This document shows positions 44,751 to 57,199 of a DNA stretch of 64,000 nucleotides, one piece after another; position 1 is the stretch's first letter, and every line of letters begins with the position of its first letter. The DNA is from Gemmatimonadetes bacterium T265. GTDB lineage: Bacteria > Gemmatimonadota > Gemmatimonadetes > Gemmatimonadales > Gemmatimonadaceae. Both the position numbers and the translations under genes were made by a program. The notes beneath the pieces are model-generated. The model ran no database searches, had not been told where the DNA came from, and saw only the letters and a list, made by a program, of their open reading frames with translations. The DNA is taken from the NCBI GenBank assembly GCA_019973575.1, contig BPUI01000003.1, positions 1 through 64,000 on the forward strand, read 5' to 3'.

Positions 44751-44856
44751 GGCTGTCGGCCGGCGGCGCGGCGCGCGGCGGGGAGGGATGCGCGCGCGGG
44801 CGCGCGGCCACATATTGGCGCATGTCGCGTCCGGCATTCTTCTGGTTCCGGTCCTA

Positions 44857-46137
<1,281 letters not shown>

Positions 46138-46150
46138 CACCCGCGCGGCG

Positions 46151-48769
46151 TCAGTCGCGCGACCGGAGCAGGGCGGCGAACGGCGGATAGTCGCGTACCG
46201 ACGCGAAGTCCATGTCCGCGTGGTCGCTCAGCACGTACGACAGCCCCTCGGCCTCGGCCCGGCGGTAGAGCGCGGTGGCGCGGTCGCGGTCGCCGAGCAG
46301 GGCGGCGATGCGCGCGCGCGCGGCGGTCGGCAGGCCGTTCGCGTAGGGCACGTGGATCGCGGCGAGCGCGTCGTCCCAGCGCGCCGCGGCGGCCCGGTCG
46401 CCGCGGCGCGCGGCCAGGCCGCCGAGGTAGGCCACCGTGACCACGCCGCCGACGCCGTCACGCGCGAGCGCCTGGAACGCCGAATCGGCCGCGGCCCAGT
46501 GTTTGGCACGGTAGAGCGCGCGGGCGACGACGACGCGCCCCGCGGGCGTTTCGCGCACGGCCGCCGGGCGGGCCTGGTACCAGGCGAGCGCGCGCTCGGC
46601 GAGCACGTCGCCCTCGCGCGGGTGGCCGTGCGCGCGCAGCTCCCGCCCGCAGTCCCAGAGCACGCTCCCCGCGTCGTACTCGGGATCGTCGGGCAGCCCC
46701 TCCGCCCCGATCGCGGTGCGCACGGCGTCGTCGACCCGCCCCGCGCCGACGTACGCGATCACGAGGTCGATGATGGTCGTTTGCGCGCCGGGGAACTTCC
46801 GGACACCCGCCTCCGCGACCGCGACCGCCGCCGCGGGCTCGCCGAGCATGTGGTACGCCGTCAGCTGATACCCGGGCAGGTTGGCCCACCCCCGCATCCA
46901 TCCGCGCTCGGGATCGGAGCGCGCGAACGCGTCGGCCGCCTCGCGGAGCCGGCGCGCGCGCGACGCACTGATGCCGACCAACATGTCGGCCTCCGGCCCC
47001 GGGGCGTGCTCACGGAGCGCGTGGGCCGCGGCGACCGCGTCGTCGTACTGCCCGTGGAGCCAGTCCGAGACGATCGCGACGAGGTCCTGGTCGGCGGCAG
47101 AAAGGCGTTCGGGCCGCGCGTGCAGCGCCGCGATCATCGAGTCGGCCGCGGCCGGCTGTGCGAGCGCCTCGTAGTCGAACGCCGCCATGATGAGCGGCTG
47201 CGGGTACGTCGAGTCGAGCGCGAACGCGCGCCGCATGTGCGCCGCGGACTCCGCGAACTTGCGCGCGGCGAGGAGGTCCCAGCCGGCGATTGCCTCGCGG
47301 TACGCCTCGTACGTGGGCGGCGTGCGCGACTGGCGGATGAAGTCGCTCATCCGCGGGTTGTAGAGCGTCGCCATCGCGCCCGTCACGGCCTCGCGCGCCC
47401 GCTCGATCGCGGCGAACGGCGCGACGACGGGCGCGCTGACGGGCACGACGGCCTGGAGCACGTGGCCGTCCTTGGCGTCAGCGATCTGCGTCTCGACGCG
47501 GAGCGAGTCGCCGGTACGGTAGTACGTGCCCCAGACGACGACGTCCGCCCCCGTCGCCGCGGCGAGCGCGTGCAGTCGGTCGACCCCCGACGGCGCCAGG
47601 CCCGGTGGGCGACCCGCGTCGCCCGAGGCAACAACCGCCGTGCGCGCATCGACGACGCGGACGAGACCCGTCTCCCCTAATCGTTCGGTGATCCACCCGG
47701 CCGCCATCCGCCCGACCGGGTCGAGCGTGGTGTCGCCGGTCGCGTTGTCGAAGGCCGCGACGAGCACGCGCGGCATCGAGGGCGGATCGGCGCGGCCGTG
47801 ACGGGACTCGAGCACGCCCGCGGTCCCAACCGCGACGGTGAGCCCGAGTCCGGCGAGCACGCGCATGCGCCACGGCGCACGGCGCCGGCGTGCCGTCACG
47901 CTGGGCGGGAGGGAAGGCCCTGGCTCGGGCACGGCCGGCGCGGCTGGCAGGCTTGGTGCGGCTGGCAGGCTCGGCGTGGCCGGCGGCATGGGCGCGGCGT
48001 CCGCCTTCTGCGCAGCGGCGACGCCGCCCACCGGCACGCCGCCCGTCGGCGTCGCGTGCCGACCGGCTCGTAGGGCGGCGAGCCGCGCCGCGAACGCCGG
48101 TTCCGGCTCGGTGTCGAGCTCCTCGCGCCACAGCGTCTGGTAGAGCTCCCCCTGTCGAATCGCGCCGGCGGTGTCGCCGCTCGCGGCCAGCGCGTCGACG
48201 AGCCCGAGTGCGATGCGGGAGCTGAGCGGGTCCACCCCCGCCGTGCACCGCCACCACTGCACCGCTTGCGCGGCGTCGCCGACGGCCGTCGCCTCGCGCG
48301 CGAGCTCCTCGACCGCGCGCCCGAACCGCCCGGCGATCCGCGCGCGCTCGCACTCGGCCCAGCGCTCGAACTCCGGCGCACCAGGCACGTGCACCCCGTC
48401 GAGGAACGGGCCGCGGTAGGCCGCCGCCGCCCCGCGCCGGTCGTCCTGCGCGAGCGCCGCCTCGAACGCGCCGACGTCCGACGTCACGACCTCCGGGTTG
48501 AGGCGCAACTCGGCGGTGCCGACCGTGAGCGCGTCCTCGCCGAGCGTGCGGCGGAGCTGATACAGGGCCTGCGCGAGCGTGCGGCGGGCCGAGTCCTCGT
48601 CGCGCTCGCCCCAGAGCAGGCCGACGAGGCGCGCGCGACTGACGCCGCGGTCGCCGCCGACGGCGAGCACGGCGAGCGCCGCCATGCCCTTGCGTTGCGC
48701 GCCGGCGGCGTCGACGGGGACGCCGTCGCGGTCGATCGACAGGCCGCCGAGCACTCGCAATTGCAGCAT
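46151..48769 (-). CDS. BTAD (SARP-like) regulator with membrane segment, TolB-like domain and TPRs
   Basis: An 872-residue one-component regulator. The N-terminus is an OmpR-type winged helix plus BTAD domain: LQLRVLGGLSIDRDGVPVDA, LVGLLWGERDEDSARRTLAQ, ALYQLRRTLGEDAL, FLDGVHVPGAPEFERWAECE. A Pro/Ala linker and one transmembrane helix follow (MRVLAGLGLTVAVGTAGVLE, about residues 300-320). Next is a TolB/FlgO-like periplasmic domain (RVLVAAFDNATGDTTLDPVG, then ATGADVVVWGTYYRTGDSL) and helical TPR-like repeats. The design lets an envelope state control a cytoplasmic DNA-binding domain, which is an inference. The intergenic repeats at 48822-48865 are its probable target. Confidence 0.88.
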   Translation of the reverse strand: MLQLRVLGGLSIDRDGVPVDAAGAQRKGMAALAVLAVGGDRGVSRARLVGLLWGERDEDSARRTLAQALYQLRRTLGEDALTVGTAELRLNPEVVTSDVGAFEAALAQDDRRGAAAAYRGPFLDGVHVPGAPEFERWAECERARIAGRFGRAVEELAREATAVGDAAQAVQWWRCTAGVDPLSSRIALGLVDALAASGDTAGAIRQGELYQTLWREELDTEPEPAFAARLAALRAGRHATPTGGVPVGGVAAAQKADAAPMPPATPSLPAAPSLPAAPAVPEPGPSLPPSVTARRRRAPWRMRVLAGLGLTVAVGTAGVLESRHGRADPPSMPRVLVAAFDNATGDTTLDPVGRMAAGWITERLGETGLVRVVDARTAVVASGDAGRPPGLAPSGVDRLHALAAATGADVVVWGTYYRTGDSLRVETQIADAKDGHVLQAVVPVSAPVVAPFAAIERAREAVTGAMATLYNPRMSDFIRQSRTPPTYEAYREAIAGWDLLAARKFAESAAHMRRAFALDSTYPQPLIMAAFDYEALAQPAAADSMIAALHARPERLSAADQDLVAIVSDWLHGQYDDAVAAAHALREHAPGPEADMLVGISASRARRLREAADAFARSDPERGWMRGWANLPGYQLTAYHMLGEPAAAVAVAEAGVRKFPGAQTTIIDLVIAYVGAGRVDDAVRTAIGAEGLPDDPEYDAGSVLWDCGRELRAHGHPREGDVLAERALAWYQARPAAVRETPAGRVVVARALYRAKHWAAADSAFQALARDGVGGVVTVAYLGGLAARRGDRAAAARWDDALAAIHVPYANGLPTAARARIAALLGDRDRATALYRRAEAEGLSYVLSDHADMDFASVRDYPPFAALLRSRD

Positions 48770-48821
48770 CGCCCCTCCTCCCCGAGGCGCGGACCCGCCC
48801 GCGCCCGCCGAGCCCCGCCAA

Positions 48822-48875
48822 CTGATTGCGCGCTGATCCGCGTCTGATCGCCCTCTGATCGGGCGGGCCTACGGT
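48822..48875 (+). promoter_or_regulatory. Four 11-bp direct repeats plus -10 box: SARP-type promoter
   Basis: CTGAT begins at 48822, 48833, 48844 and 48855, an exact 11-bp period (units CTGATTGCGCG, CTGATCCGCGT, CTGATCGCCCT, CTGATCGGGCG). The last heptamer ends at 48861, eight bases before a -10-like TACGGT (48870-48875). SARP/BTAD activators such as ActII-ORF4 and DnrI bind heptamer repeats at 11-bp steps with eight bases to the -10 box. The repeats lie between a BTAD regulator gene and the outer-membrane protein gene. Confidence 0.7.
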
Positions 48876-48947
48876 ACGTGGCAGTTGCGCTACCGGCAAT
48901 AGGGCTGGTGCGCAACCCACTCGCGCCATCTGCTGAGGCCGCTGCGC

Positions 48948-49685
48948 ATGCCTGTCCCCGCGATCCCCGTACTCCCCCCGTCCCGCCCGACTGCCGCCTG
49001 CCGGCGCGGTGTCCGCCTGGCAGCCGCCGTGGCTGCCGTCGCGACCGCGCACCCCCTCCGCGCGCAACTCGTCCCCCTGGTCGGCTCGCGCCCGGCCATC
49101 CTCAGCCTCGGCGTCGCGGGCGGCTTCACCGTGCCGACCAAGAACGCCGACACACCCACGCGCGTCGGCCCCAACGGCCAGACTTATGTGCTGGTCCACA
49201 TCCCCGGCCTGCCGCCGCTCCGTTTCAACGTCGGCTATCAGAAGCAGACGTTCCGCGACGTGCTCGGCGTGCCGTCGCTCCCCGGCGGCCCGAGCACGGG
49301 CGCGACGCTGACGACGGTCGAAAAGGACCGCTCGCGTCAGATGCTGAGCGCCGTCGGCGGGATCACGCTGCCCCTGTTCCACCTCGGGCCGGTGAGCCCG
49401 TACCTGACGGCCGGGCTCGGAGCCTTTCACGTGCATACGCCGGCGGACACCGCCGTGACGGCCGCGGCCGGGAGCACCACGCCACTCGTCGCGACCGCCC
49501 CTTCGCAGTCGAGCGTCAGCTTCGGCGTGGACGGCGGCGCGGGACTTTCGCTCGCGCTCGGGCGCGTGGCGGCCTTCGCCGAAGGGCGCGTGCAGAACGT
49601 CTACTCCGACCACGGCGCGATCAAGAGCGCGCGACAGATCAAGGCCGTCCCGGTCGCGCTCGGCTTCAGCGTGGGCCTCTTCTGA
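48948..49685 (+). CDS. Exported outer-membrane beta-barrel-like protein
   Basis: A 245-residue protein with a signal peptide (VRLAAAVAAVATAHPLRAQ). The mature part is made of amphipathic strands and turns: ILSLGVAGGFTVPTKNADTP, MLSAVGGITLPLFHLGPVSP, VSFGVDGGAGLSLALGRVAA. It ends in LGFSVGLF with a terminal Phe, the BAM-recognition type of C-terminus. This fits a small porin-like or OmpA/OmpW-like barrel of unknown function. It is the first gene behind the 11-bp-repeat promoter (5' UTR about 66 bases) and is linked to the next gene by a one-base stop/start overlap. Confidence 0.7.
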   Translation: MPVPAIPVLPPSRPTAACRRGVRLAAAVAAVATAHPLRAQLVPLVGSRPAILSLGVAGGFTVPTKNADTPTRVGPNGQTYVLVHIPGLPPLRFNVGYQKQTFRDVLGVPSLPGGPSTGATLTTVEKDRSRQMLSAVGGITLPLFHLGPVSPYLTAGLGAFHVHTPADTAVTAAAGSTTPLVATAPSQSSVSFGVDGGAGLSLALGRVAAFAEGRVQNVYSDHGAIKSARQIKAVPVALGFSVGLF

Positions 49686-53655: not shown

Positions 53656-55008
53656 GTGCCCTTGCTCCCCCTCGTGCTCGCCCTCGGCGCCGCCGGCCTG
53701 CTCGGCCGCGCGCCGGCCGCGCCGCCCGCCGCCGCTCCGCGCCCCCGCGCGCCGGCCGCGTGGGCCGCGCAGGACCCCGCCGACTCGCTCTACCGCGACG
53801 CCCGCGCCGCGCTCAACGACGGCGACTACGAGCGCGCCGCCGCCGGCTTCCACACGATCACCGACCGCTACCCGCGCAGCGCCTACGCGCCCGACGCGCC
53901 CTACTACGAGGCGTTCGCCCGCTACCGCCTGGGCGGCTCGCGCAACCTCCGCGCGGCGCTCGCCCTGCTCGACGGCCAGCGGCAACGCTCCGCGCGGGCC
54001 GCCACGCGCGACGACGCCGCCGCGCTCGGCGCCCGGATCCGCGGCGAGCTGGCCCGCGGGGGCGACGCTGACGCGGCGGCGACCGTGGCCGACGACGCCC
54101 GCGCCGCCGCGAGCGCCTGCCCGCGCGGCGGCGACGAGGACGAGCGGGTCGCCGCGCTCAACGCCCTCGCGCAGATGGACGCGGGCCAGGCAACGCCCGT
54201 CCTGCAGCGCGTGCTCGCCCGGCGCGACGCGTGCTCCGCCCCGCTCCGCCGCAAGGCCGTCTTCCTCCTCTCGCAGCAGGGCGGCGCCGAGACGGCCGAC
54301 GCGTTGCTGCGCGTCGCGCAGACCGACCCGGACCACGAGGTGCGCGAGCAGGCCGTGTTCTGGCTCTCCCAGGTACACACGCCGCGCGCGACCGAGGTGC
54401 TCGTCGGCATCCTGAACAACACGAACGGCGCGGGCGACGCCGAGTTACAGGAGCGGGCGCTGTTCGCCCTCTCGCAACAGGGCTCGGAGCGCGGCACGCA
54501 GGTCCTGCGCGACCTCGCCGGCCGCGAGGGGGCGAGCACGGCGCTGCGCGAGAAGGCGATCTTCTGGCTCGGCCAGGGCCGCTCGGCGGAGAGCGCGGCC
54601 TTCCTGCGTACGCTCTACGGCCAGCTGCGCGACCCCGGGCTCAAGGAGCGGCTGCTGTTCTCGCTCTCGCAACAAGGCGGCGAGGGAAACGACCAGTGGC
54701 TCATCGCCGTCGCGCAGAACGGCCGCGAGGACCTGGAGCTGCGCAAGAAGGCGATCTTCTGGGCGTCGCAGGGCCACGCCGGCGTCGCGCAGCTCAACGC
54801 GCTCTACGGACGCCTAACGGAACGCGAGCTGCGCGAGCAGATCATCTTCGCCCTCAGCCAGCGCCGCGAGCGCGAGGCGGTGGATCGGCTGATGGAGATC
54901 GCCCGCGCCGACGCCGACCCGGAGCTGCGCAAGAAGGCGATCTTCTGGCTCGGCCAGTCGCGCGACCCGCGGGCGGCGCAGTTCCTCCTCTCGCTGCTCG
55001 ACCGGTGA
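53656..55008 (+). CDS. Exported HEAT-repeat protein 1
   Basis: A 450-residue protein from GTG 53656 (GGAG at six bases). It has a signal-like N-terminus, a TPR-like segment (YRDARAALNDGDYERAAAGF), and about seven HEAT-type helical repeats from residue 190. Consecutive units carry the cores RRKAVFLLSQQGGAETADAL, REQAVFWLSQVHTPRATEVL, QERALFALSQQGSERGTQVL, REKAIFWLGQGRSAESAAFL, KERLLFSLSQQGG, RKKAIFWASQGHAG and RKKAIFWLGQSRDPRAAQFL. HEAT arrays bind other proteins. Its stop overlaps the next start by four bases (GTGA). Confidence 0.82.
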   Translation: MPLLPLVLALGAAGLLGRAPAAPPAAAPRPRAPAAWAAQDPADSLYRDARAALNDGDYERAAAGFHTITDRYPRSAYAPDAPYYEAFARYRLGGSRNLRAALALLDGQRQRSARAATRDDAAALGARIRGELARGGDADAAATVADDARAAASACPRGGDEDERVAALNALAQMDAGQATPVLQRVLARRDACSAPLRRKAVFLLSQQGGAETADALLRVAQTDPDHEVREQAVFWLSQVHTPRATEVLVGILNNTNGAGDAELQERALFALSQQGSERGTQVLRDLAGREGASTALREKAIFWLGQGRSAESAAFLRTLYGQLRDPGLKERLLFSLSQQGGEGNDQWLIAVAQNGREDLELRKKAIFWASQGHAGVAQLNALYGRLTERELREQIIFALSQRREREAVDRLMEIARADADPELRKKAIFWLGQSRDPRAAQFLLSLLDR

Positions 55009-56321
55009 GCGCGCCGACGCGGGCGCGCGCGGCGCGCGGCGTCGCGCTCGTCGTGGCGTTAGGCATACCGGTGGTGCGCGCAGCGGCACAGCGCCCCGCG
55101 CTGGCCGCGCGCGTCGCGGCGGCGGCCGTCGCGGGCGACGGCGCGGTCACGCTACACTACGCGACGCGCGCGGCCGCCTGCGGCGACGGGCGCGACTTCG
55201 TCGCCCTCGGCCGGTTCGTGTCCGGCGGCGGCGTGATGGGGTACGGGTGGCGCGATACGCCGTGCGTGCACGGGCCGGCGACCGCGACGCTCGCCGTGCG
55301 CGGCGGGGCGGTGACCGGCGTGCGGGTGCGCGTCGGGGGCAGCAGTCCGGCCGCGTCCGCGGGACGCGACCTCGGCGCCGTGGGCGCGGAGGAGGCCGCG
55401 CGCTACTTCCTGTCGCTCGCCGAGCGCGACGCGGACGCCGAACAGGCCGTCGCGGCGGCGACGATCGCCGACAGTGCGGACGCGTGGCGGCCGCTGCTCG
55501 CCCTCGCGCGGCAGGCGGCCGCGCCGGAGCGGACGCGGCGGGCGGCCCTGCACTGGCTCCCCGCCGCCGCGCCGCCGGAGGCCGTCCCGACCTTCGCGGC
55601 CATCGTGCGCGACCCGGACGAGCGGCGGCCGGTGCGCGAGGGCGCGTTCGTCGTGCTCGCGCTCGCGCCCGGCGGCTCCGGCGTGCCCACGCTCGTCGCG
55701 GCGGCGCGCGGCGAGCGTGCGGCGGGCGGGGGCGACGCGTGGGTGCGCGACCGCGCGGTCTTCTGGCTCGGCAACGCCGACGACCCGCGCGCCCGCGCCG
55801 CGCTCCGCACCCTCGCCGCCGCCGACAGCGCGCCCGAGGCGGTGCGCGCGCAGGCGATCTTCACGCTCGGCCACCTCGACCGCGGCGGCGACCGCGGGGA
55901 GGGGAACGCGGCCTTCCTGCGCGCGCTCTACCCACGCCTAACGAACGGCGTCCTCCGCGACCGCACCATCCAGAGCGTCGCGCAGGGCGACGACGCGGCG
56001 AGCCGGCGCTGGCTGCTCGATCTGGCGGCGGACGCGGCGCAGCCGCTCGACGCGCGCAAGCAGGCGCTCTTCTGGGCCGGGCAGCGCGACGACGACGTCG
56101 CCGACCTGCTCGCCGAAGACGCGCGGCTCGCGGGGCCGGAGCTGCGCCGGCACTACACCTTCGTGCTGTCGCAGCGGCCGGAGGACGCGGCGGTCGACCG
56201 GCTGATCGCGATCGCGCGCGCGGACGCCGACGCGGAGGTGCGCCGGCAGGCGATCTTCTGGCTCGGGCAGAGCCGGAGCGCGCGGGCGCGGGCGTACCTC
56301 GAAGGGCTCGTGGCGCGGTGA
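55005..56321 (+). CDS. Exported HEAT-repeat protein 2
   Basis: A 438-residue protein translated by coupling from the previous gene. A signal region (GVALVVALGIPVVRAAAQ) is followed by a small beta domain with two Cys (VTLHYATRAAACGDGRDFVA, GVMGYGWRDTPCVHGPATAT) and then HEAT units: RDRAVFWLGNADDPRARAAL, RAQAIFTLGHLDR, RKQALFWAGQRDD, RRHYTFVLSQRPEDAAVDRL, RRQAIFWLGQSRSARARAYL. The C-terminal repeat nearly matches that of protein 1, so the genes arose by duplication. The CGDG...CVHG domain is shared with protein 3. Its own stop overlaps the next GTG by four bases. Confidence 0.8.
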   Translation: MSAPTRARAARGVALVVALGIPVVRAAAQRPALAARVAAAAVAGDGAVTLHYATRAAACGDGRDFVALGRFVSGGGVMGYGWRDTPCVHGPATATLAVRGGAVTGVRVRVGGSSPAASAGRDLGAVGAEEAARYFLSLAERDADAEQAVAAATIADSADAWRPLLALARQAAAPERTRRAALHWLPAAAPPEAVPTFAAIVRDPDERRPVREGAFVVLALAPGGSGVPTLVAAARGERAAGGGDAWVRDRAVFWLGNADDPRARAALRTLAAADSAPEAVRAQAIFTLGHLDRGGDRGEGNAAFLRALYPRLTNGVLRDRTIQSVAQGDDAASRRWLLDLAADAAQPLDARKQALFWAGQRDDDVADLLAEDARLAGPELRRHYTFVLSQRPEDAAVDRLIAIARADADAEVRRQAIFWLGQSRSARARAYLEGLVAR

Positions 56322-57199
56322 GCGTCCCGCGGCTCGTGAGGCGGGCGACCGCGGCCGCGGTCGTGCTCGCCGCGGTGGTCGCGCGGACCGAGGCGCGCGG
56401 GCAGGACGCCGCAGGCTCGCCTAACGCCCGCGCGTTGGCCGAGCGCGTCGCGCGGGCGGGCGACGGGGTGGTGCGCTTCCGCTACGCCGTCCGCGACGGC
56501 GTGTGCGGCGACGGCGCGCGCGGGATCACGATCCGGGGCGCCGACGGCACCGCGCGCTACGGCAGCACCGGATACAGCGGCGACGACCGGTGGGGCGCGC
56601 CGCCCTGCGAGCCCGGGCCGGCGCGCGTGGCGCTCGCCGTGCGCGGGGGTGTCGCGGGCGCGGTGCGGCTCGCCGTCGGCGGCGAGAGCGACCACCCGGG
56701 TGAGGGCGGCCGTGCGGTCGACCTCGGCGTCGTCCCCGCCGCGGCCGCGGCCGCGTACCTCCTCGACCTCGCCGCGCGCGACGACGCCCCGTCGCCGAAC
56801 CGCCTGCTACTCGGCGCCGTGGTCGCGGACAGCAGCGTCGTCTGGCCGGGCCTGCTCGGCCTCGCGCGCGACGCGCGGCTGCCTAACGCGACGCGGCGCG
56901 AGGCGACGTTCTGGGCGGGCCGGTACGCGTGCGACGCCGTGACCGCCGCGGCGCGCGCGGGCCGCGCGCCGGCGGGCCGCGCCGACACCGCCGGCCGCGC
57001 GGTGCGCGAGCAGGTCGTCTTCGCGCTGTCGCAGCGCCCGGGCGACGAGCGCGAGGCGACGCTGCTCCGCGTGGCGCGCGCGGACCGGGATCCGGCGGTG
57101 CGCTGCGCGGCCCTCTTCTGGCTCGGGCAGGAGACGGGGGGCGAGTCCGCGGGCGCGCGCACGCTCGCGCTCTACGAGGACGTGCTGCGCGGGCGGTGA
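56318..57199 (+). CDS. Exported HEAT-repeat protein 3 (short)
   Basis: A 293-residue last gene of the coupled trio. It has a signal region (AAAVVLAAVVARTEARGQ) and the same two-Cys beta domain as protein 2 (VVRFRYAVRDGVCGDGARGI, then RYGSTGYSGDDRWGAPPCEP). Few HEAT units remain: RREATFWAGRYACDAVTAAA, REQVVFALSQRPGDEREATL, RCAALFWLGQETGGESAGAR. It is shorter than its neighbours, with fewer repeats. All three are predicted to sit outside the cytoplasmic membrane, in reach of the anti-sigma sensor part. Confidence 0.78.
   Translation: MSVPRLVRRATAAAVVLAAVVARTEARGQDAAGSPNARALAERVARAGDGVVRFRYAVRDGVCGDGARGITIRGADGTARYGSTGYSGDDRWGAPPCEPGPARVALAVRGGVAGAVRLAVGGESDHPGEGGRAVDLGVVPAAAAAAYLLDLAARDDAPSPNRLLLGAVVADSSVVWPGLLGLARDARLPNATRREATFWAGRYACDAVTAAARAGRAPAGRADTAGRAVREQVVFALSQRPGDEREATLLRVARADRDPAVRCAALFWLGQETGGESAGARTLALYEDVLRGR

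Follow-up and report, generated by a model that had tools for sequence, protein, structure and literature searches.

The intergenic region between a BTAD regulator gene and its divergent neighbour in Gemmatimonadetes bacterium T265 carries an array of four direct repeats at exact 11-bp steps, each step one turn of the helix, set next to a -10 sequence that can be read on both strands. The region lies within positions 1 to 64,000 of contig BPUI01000003.1, the 64,000-nucleotide stretch analysed here and called the window below. Judged from sequence comparisons, it is probable that a membrane-anchored SARP-type regulator activates a divergent gene for an outer-membrane protein from a -10 that serves both directions, and that it represses its own gene. 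The putative target of this SARP relative is an exported beta-barrel-like protein rather than an antibiotic or secondary-metabolite cluster; because control of such a cluster is a typical, though not a structural, feature of SARPs, the wording SARP-type is used rather than SARP. The features of the locus are collected in Table 1.

Table 1. Features of the regulator gene, its divergent neighbour and the region between them, in window positions.
Feature	Positions	Strand	Description or basis
BTAD regulator, 872 aa	46151..48769	-	OmpR-type winged helix, BTAD domain, TM-like segment, C-terminal part with TPR-like end
Operator array (putative), 4x CTGATNN at exact 11-bp steps	48822..48861	+	Direct reading; family-wide 11-bp period
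Candidate -10 of divergent gene, TACGGT	48870..48875	+	8 bp past array; TAnnnTA enrichment at phased arrays
Predicted -10 of BTAD gene, TACCGT	48871..48876	-	Overlaps proposed + strand -10; start predicted near 48864
Predicted -35 of BTAD gene, TTGCCG	48894..48899	-	Exactly 17-bp spacer to TACCGT
Divergent gene for a predicted exported, outer-membrane beta-barrel-like protein of 245 aa	48948..49685	+	Signal-like N-terminus; homologues match OMP_b-brl

Direct reading of the window gives the heptamers CTGATTG (48822-48828), CTGATCC (48833-48839), CTGATCG (48844-48850) and CTGATCG (48855-48861), and the eight bases between the last of them and TACGGT are GGCGGGCC (48862-48869). Both the 11-bp steps and the eight-base gap reported in the preliminary description of this DNA are therefore correct. 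On the strand of the BTAD gene the array reads GATCAG/GATCAG/GATCAG/AATCAG, with the core TCA. The pattern CTGAT(N6CTGAT)x3 has a single match in the window and none in 100 dinucleotide shuffles, with up to three mismatches allowed. At the same tolerance this is its single occurrence in the 5.63-Mb genome, the rest of which contains no further copy of the operator. Given the base composition, a fourfold 11-bp repeat of any pentamer has an expected count of 1.5e-5 in 150 bp. The other BTAD paralogues in the T265 genome are without a proximal 11-bp array.

The gene divergent to the putative target had been said to encode a BTAD protein, and a match to the BTAD domain at residues 106-230 (E 9.4e-13) bears this out. 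The winged helix scores 21.8 bits with Trans_reg_C, under the 26.2 cut-off, and a profile of the regulator's relatives searched against the PDB matches AfsR (8hvr, E 7.9e-11, over winged helix and BTAD) and also EmbR. The recognition helix, at about residues 59-74, carries R63 and Q67. A TM-like segment at residues 302-320, following RRRR, is called with hydropathy as the sole measure (1.67); hydropathy exceeds 1.5 in 20 of 23 full-length relatives, and some array genes encode no TM segment. A gene for a PAS-domain histidine kinase (44788-46137) converges on the BTAD gene across a 13-bp gap. In another family, the coding region of the BTAD gene at locus L266 specifies a product that is apparently fused to a Ser/Thr protein kinase domain (ADFGIARALE motif).

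The window copy of the 245-aa protein has no Pfam match of its own, and OMP_b-brl is matched by its homologues (E 3.2e-7). The closest case lies on contig 95 of genome G067. There the same outer-membrane protein, at 46-50% identity, faces a BTAD gene whose product is 46% identical to the window regulator over the N-terminal part, and this syntenic pair has repeats of identical 8-bp geometry ahead of TAGTGT. Elsewhere, no other homologue of the outer-membrane protein adjoins an array and an orthologous BTAD gene. Further along the window, a gene run at 53656-57199 encodes repeat proteins with many IFWLGQ/LFALSQ-type HEAT-like units.

The promoter elements of the two genes overlap. On the + strand TACGGT has no -35 hexamer, and the start of the divergent gene is predicted near 48882. 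The sole TTG-17-TAnnnT promoter at the locus, overlooked in the preliminary description, lies on the - strand and faces the BTAD gene. Since TACGGTA on the + strand is TACCGTA on the - strand, the sequence is a symmetrical -10 that can be read both ways. TACGGT is thus not the free-standing -10 that had been proposed, since it mirrors the predicted -10 of the BTAD gene. The repeats fall within the predicted 5' leader of the BTAD gene, from about +5 to +42. A generic sigma-70 scan of 48700-49000 called no promoter, because the -35 of the BTAD gene is TTGCCG. SARP operators repeat their word directly every 11 or 22 bp. The locus had been taken to reproduce the Streptomyces SARP promoter rule, and it does so in its repeats, its 8-bp gap and its poor -35, but its candidate -10 belongs also to the predicted BTAD gene promoter.

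This layout recurs in the phylum. The comparison covered the upstream regions of 211 Gemmatimonadota genes that encode a BTAD protein with the winged helix at its N-terminus: 105 loci from the same family as T265 (set 1), 51 further loci of that family (set 2) and 55 loci of the same order and class but other families (set 3). Periods of 7-16 bp were scanned; to score, a period had to show at least 4 of 6 identical positions across three consecutive units inside 140 bp. An 11-bp period is present upstream of 53/105, 23/51 and 26/55 BTAD genes in sets 1, 2 and 3, while the other periods reach at most 6/105, 5/51 and 5/55, none above background, and control segments around the same genes score in 60 of 1213 cases. 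The search upstream of other BTAD genes that the preliminary description had proposed thus returns exact 11-bp direct repeats at about half of the 211; the repeat words vary from gene to gene while the period holds in all three sets. The strict pattern TTGN3-N17-TAN3T, directed toward the BTAD gene, occurs in 34 of the 105 set-1 regions; the reverse strand has no match with this 17-bp spacing, and 558 control segments have none at all. Relative to this promoter the repeats keep a fixed phase. T[CT][AG] cores in set 1 peak at 12, 23, 34 and 45 past the end of the BTAD-gene -10, with a total of 73 in this phase vs 6-22 in the others. With the promoter matrix and threshold frozen beforehand, set 2 gives 24 vs 2-9, and set 3 gives 50 across two adjacent phases vs 2-7 each. 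What is best conserved across the loci is a predicted BTAD promoter with an array directly downstream, the arrangement of putative autoregulation.

Other placements are also seen. At L052 an 11-bp array (GATCAGA/GGTCAGA/GGTCAGA) lies upstream of the -35 of the BTAD promoter, not downstream of the -10. A clade comprising L016, L017 and L027 uses another phase, with cores near +18, +29 and +40 and divergent lipoprotein-like genes, and here the 8-bp reverse -10 does not fit.

Could a protein other than the adjacent regulator be the one that reads the array? When residues 20-110 are scanned against 12 positions of the repeat unit, the top covariation among all residues tested is that of residue 67 with core base 3 (z 18); core base 2 comes next, covarying with residues 63 and 70 (z 12), and residue 66 covaries with the base preceding the core (z 10). 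All four residues lie in the recognition helix. All 11 TCG arrays go with D at residue 67, and 45 of the 47 others with Q, as in the window protein; Q67 pairs with a core A. Residue 63 is N in all five TTA arrays; in TCA arrays it is H in 30 of 41 and R, the less common residue found in the window protein, in 7 of 41. The covariation found in the earlier sets recurs in set 3 (D67 with TCG in 2/2, N63 with TTA in 1/1), and L067, outside the main TCG clade, combines D67 with mixed TCG/TCA units. On the tree the changes recur, eight times for N63 and three times for D67, with few supported independent pairs in tree-based pair tests. These comparisons indicate that the BTAD protein reads its own array, because the repeat cores covary with residues 67 and 63 of the adjacent protein. 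In the D67 clade (L077, L080, L084, L098, L115 and relatives) TCTCGC replaces the TCA arrays, a natural specificity switch.

The same covariation bears on two other readings. An OmpR/PhoB-type response regulator other than the adjacent BTAD protein might bind the array as a PHO-box-like site, given that PhoB-type sites are likewise 11-bp direct repeats and that a histidine kinase gene adjoins the BTAD gene. This is very improbable, however, as the repeats change across the phylum along with the recognition helix of the BTAD protein itself, and the site is unique in the genome, unlike those of a global regulon. Closer still to negligible is the chance that the repeats function at the RNA level, within the leader of the BTAD gene, or represent a chance or mutational tandem repeat. 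They do lie within the predicted leader, but no Rfam match was found for the repeat region, the 11-bp period is kept in all sets despite differing repeat words, and the repeat sequence changes with the DNA-reading residues of the protein.

Alignment to AfsR suggests how the BTAD protein would sit on the array. Window Q67 corresponds to AfsR T88, Q71 to R92 and residue 66 to R87. AfsR T88 contacts position -36 and R92 position -38, while R87 touches the backbone at -35 to -33 (PMC10936776). Within the first unit of the window array, residue 67 falls on bp 48823 and residue 66 on 48826, and therefore the downstream side of the protein would point rightward, toward 48948. If the last unit (48856) is set on AfsR position -25 and the -10 is assumed to span -12 to -7, the -10 is predicted at 48869-48874, and TACGGT lies 1 bp off this prediction. 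From the covariation and the published structure we infer the orientation of AfsR at afsS, with a register within 1 bp, facing the divergent gene. The description of the repeats as a SARP-type operator thus gains from the 11-bp arrays across the phylum, the helix/repeat covariation and the AfsR register, and is qualified by the fact that the array also covers the predicted BTAD transcript from about +5 to +42.

The symmetry of the -10 recurs as well. When a forward TAnnnT is followed by an A, a reverse TAnnnT appears exactly 8 bp from a phase-12 array. In set 1 this A is present at 14 of 20 phased arrays vs 6 of 44 other BTAD promoters, and a relative's generic promoters have TAnnnTA in 3 of 30 cases. 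Sets 2 and 3 combined give 11/17 vs 9/35 (p 0.014), set 2 alone not being significant, and all sets give 25/37 phased arrays vs 15/79 other BTAD promoters (p 6e-7), p-values that assume independent loci where the loci are related and independence is only partial. TAnnnTA is frequent but not universal, with about a third of phased arrays lacking the A. Several set-3 loci carry TAGTATA or TACTATA, so that the reverse -10 is TATACT or TATAGT. The neighbouring genes differ too: by our own simple gene caller, the ratio of divergent to co-directional upstream genes is 90:4 with an array vs 70:32 without (p 6e-7), and a crude signal test marks the divergent products as seemingly exported in 50/83 cases with an array vs 29/78 without (p 0.004). 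At L096, L107 and L119, which form a BTAD clade with ATCAGG arrays, the divergent gene resembles a HAD-type sugar phosphatase.

Could the array serve autoregulation alone, as a repressor site over the start region of the BTAD gene, with the divergent gene not controlled from it? The conservation of the BTAD promoter and its downstream array would be expected, and at four array genes the upstream gene is indeed co-directional, with TAnnnTA absent from one of these loci (L102). Yet a simple roadblock does not need a fixed phase, TAnnnTA is specifically enriched at phased arrays, arrays avoid loci that have no divergent gene, and the protein as oriented above faces that gene. Together, these four observations therefore favour control in both directions over autoregulation alone, which is rather unlikely.

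In the preferred model, activation of the divergent gene with self-repression, BTAD protomers would occupy neighbouring 11-bp units, one protomer to each, and face the + strand. Once active, they would recruit RNA polymerase to TACGGT in place of the missing -35, turning the divergent gene on, much as SARPs stand in for a missing -35 (PMC10936776). The same -10 in the opposite reading, with the TTGCCG -35, would be the regulator's own promoter. Binding would repress the regulator gene, whose predicted start region lies under the array and whose polymerase would have to compete with that of the divergent gene for one -10; at E. coli bidirectional promoters, activators of one direction have been measured to repress the opposite direction (PMC12825309). 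The signal would presumably be sensed by the C-terminal part of the regulator beyond the membrane, and the TM-like segment hints that sensing takes place at the envelope, which is also where the target protein would reside. It is improbable that the regulator instead uses the array to keep both genes repressed until a signal lifts the repression. Such two-way repression is known for an AcrR-type regulator at a bidirectional promoter (PMC12825309), but here the divergent direction has no -35, and register and orientation fit an activating AfsR site.

The component parts of this model are of known kinds, and their combination is new. The control layout has so far been known mainly from Streptomyces antibiotic regulators. 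The earlier remark that SARP sites are hardly described outside Actinobacteria agrees with the literature searched (mostly other than subscription papers), in which no description of SARP-type operators in Gemmatimonadota was found, and with a survey that lists few true SARPs outside Actinobacteria (PMC7040171). The chances appear about even that SARP-type switches of this sort, membrane-anchored, specific to their locus and each reading its own array, form a class found throughout Gemmatimonadota. Every such regulator would share one symmetrical -10 with a single divergent gene, whose product is often exported. A simple code (at residue 67, Q reads A and D reads G; at residue 63, H reads C, N reads T and possibly T reads G) would match each regulator to its own 11-bp array. 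This would extend the SARP promoter rule beyond Actinobacteria with a different logic, in which one symmetrical -10 serves regulator and target in opposite directions. With their own array variant at many divergent pairs, these loci would provide a natural experiment in the co-change of winged-helix regulators and operators, and the two-position recognition code would allow sequence alone to predict the target gene of many uncharacterised regulators.

Several known systems share parts of this arrangement. The PHO box, the site of the OmpR-family protein PhoB, consists of direct repeats (7 bp + 4 bp) upstream of a -10; PhoB is a response regulator with a receiver domain and a regulon, whereas the window protein would be a one-component regulator with one site. 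OmpR-like activators of the CadC/ToxR type have an N-terminal winged helix, a single membrane segment and a local target gene, and differ in that the protein described here has a BTAD domain placed between its winged helix and its TM-like segment, as well as a SARP-type tandem array. EmbR of Mycobacterium tuberculosis is alike by sequence in its winged helix and BTAD architecture, but has a C-terminal FHA domain and no membrane segment described (PMC10936776). The acrR/acrA and soxR/soxS promoters (PMC12825309) likewise use one symmetrical -10 readable both ways; their activators are SoxS or SoxR, while here a SARP-type array in one phase recurs at many regulator genes. AfsR at afsS of Streptomyces coelicolor (PMC10936776) shares the OmpR-type winged helix with BTAD, the 11-bp direct repeats, a last repeat 8 bp from a weak -10, in keeping with the 8-bp rule for SARP promoters (PMC7040171), and a poor -35. 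It differs in having two repeats rather than four, another repeat word and other contact residues, and a NOD domain where the window regulator has its TM-like segment. Unlike at afsS, the array described here would be shared with the regulator's own promoter, and where AfsR serves antibiotic control in Streptomyces, the predicted target in Gemmatimonadota is an outer-membrane protein.
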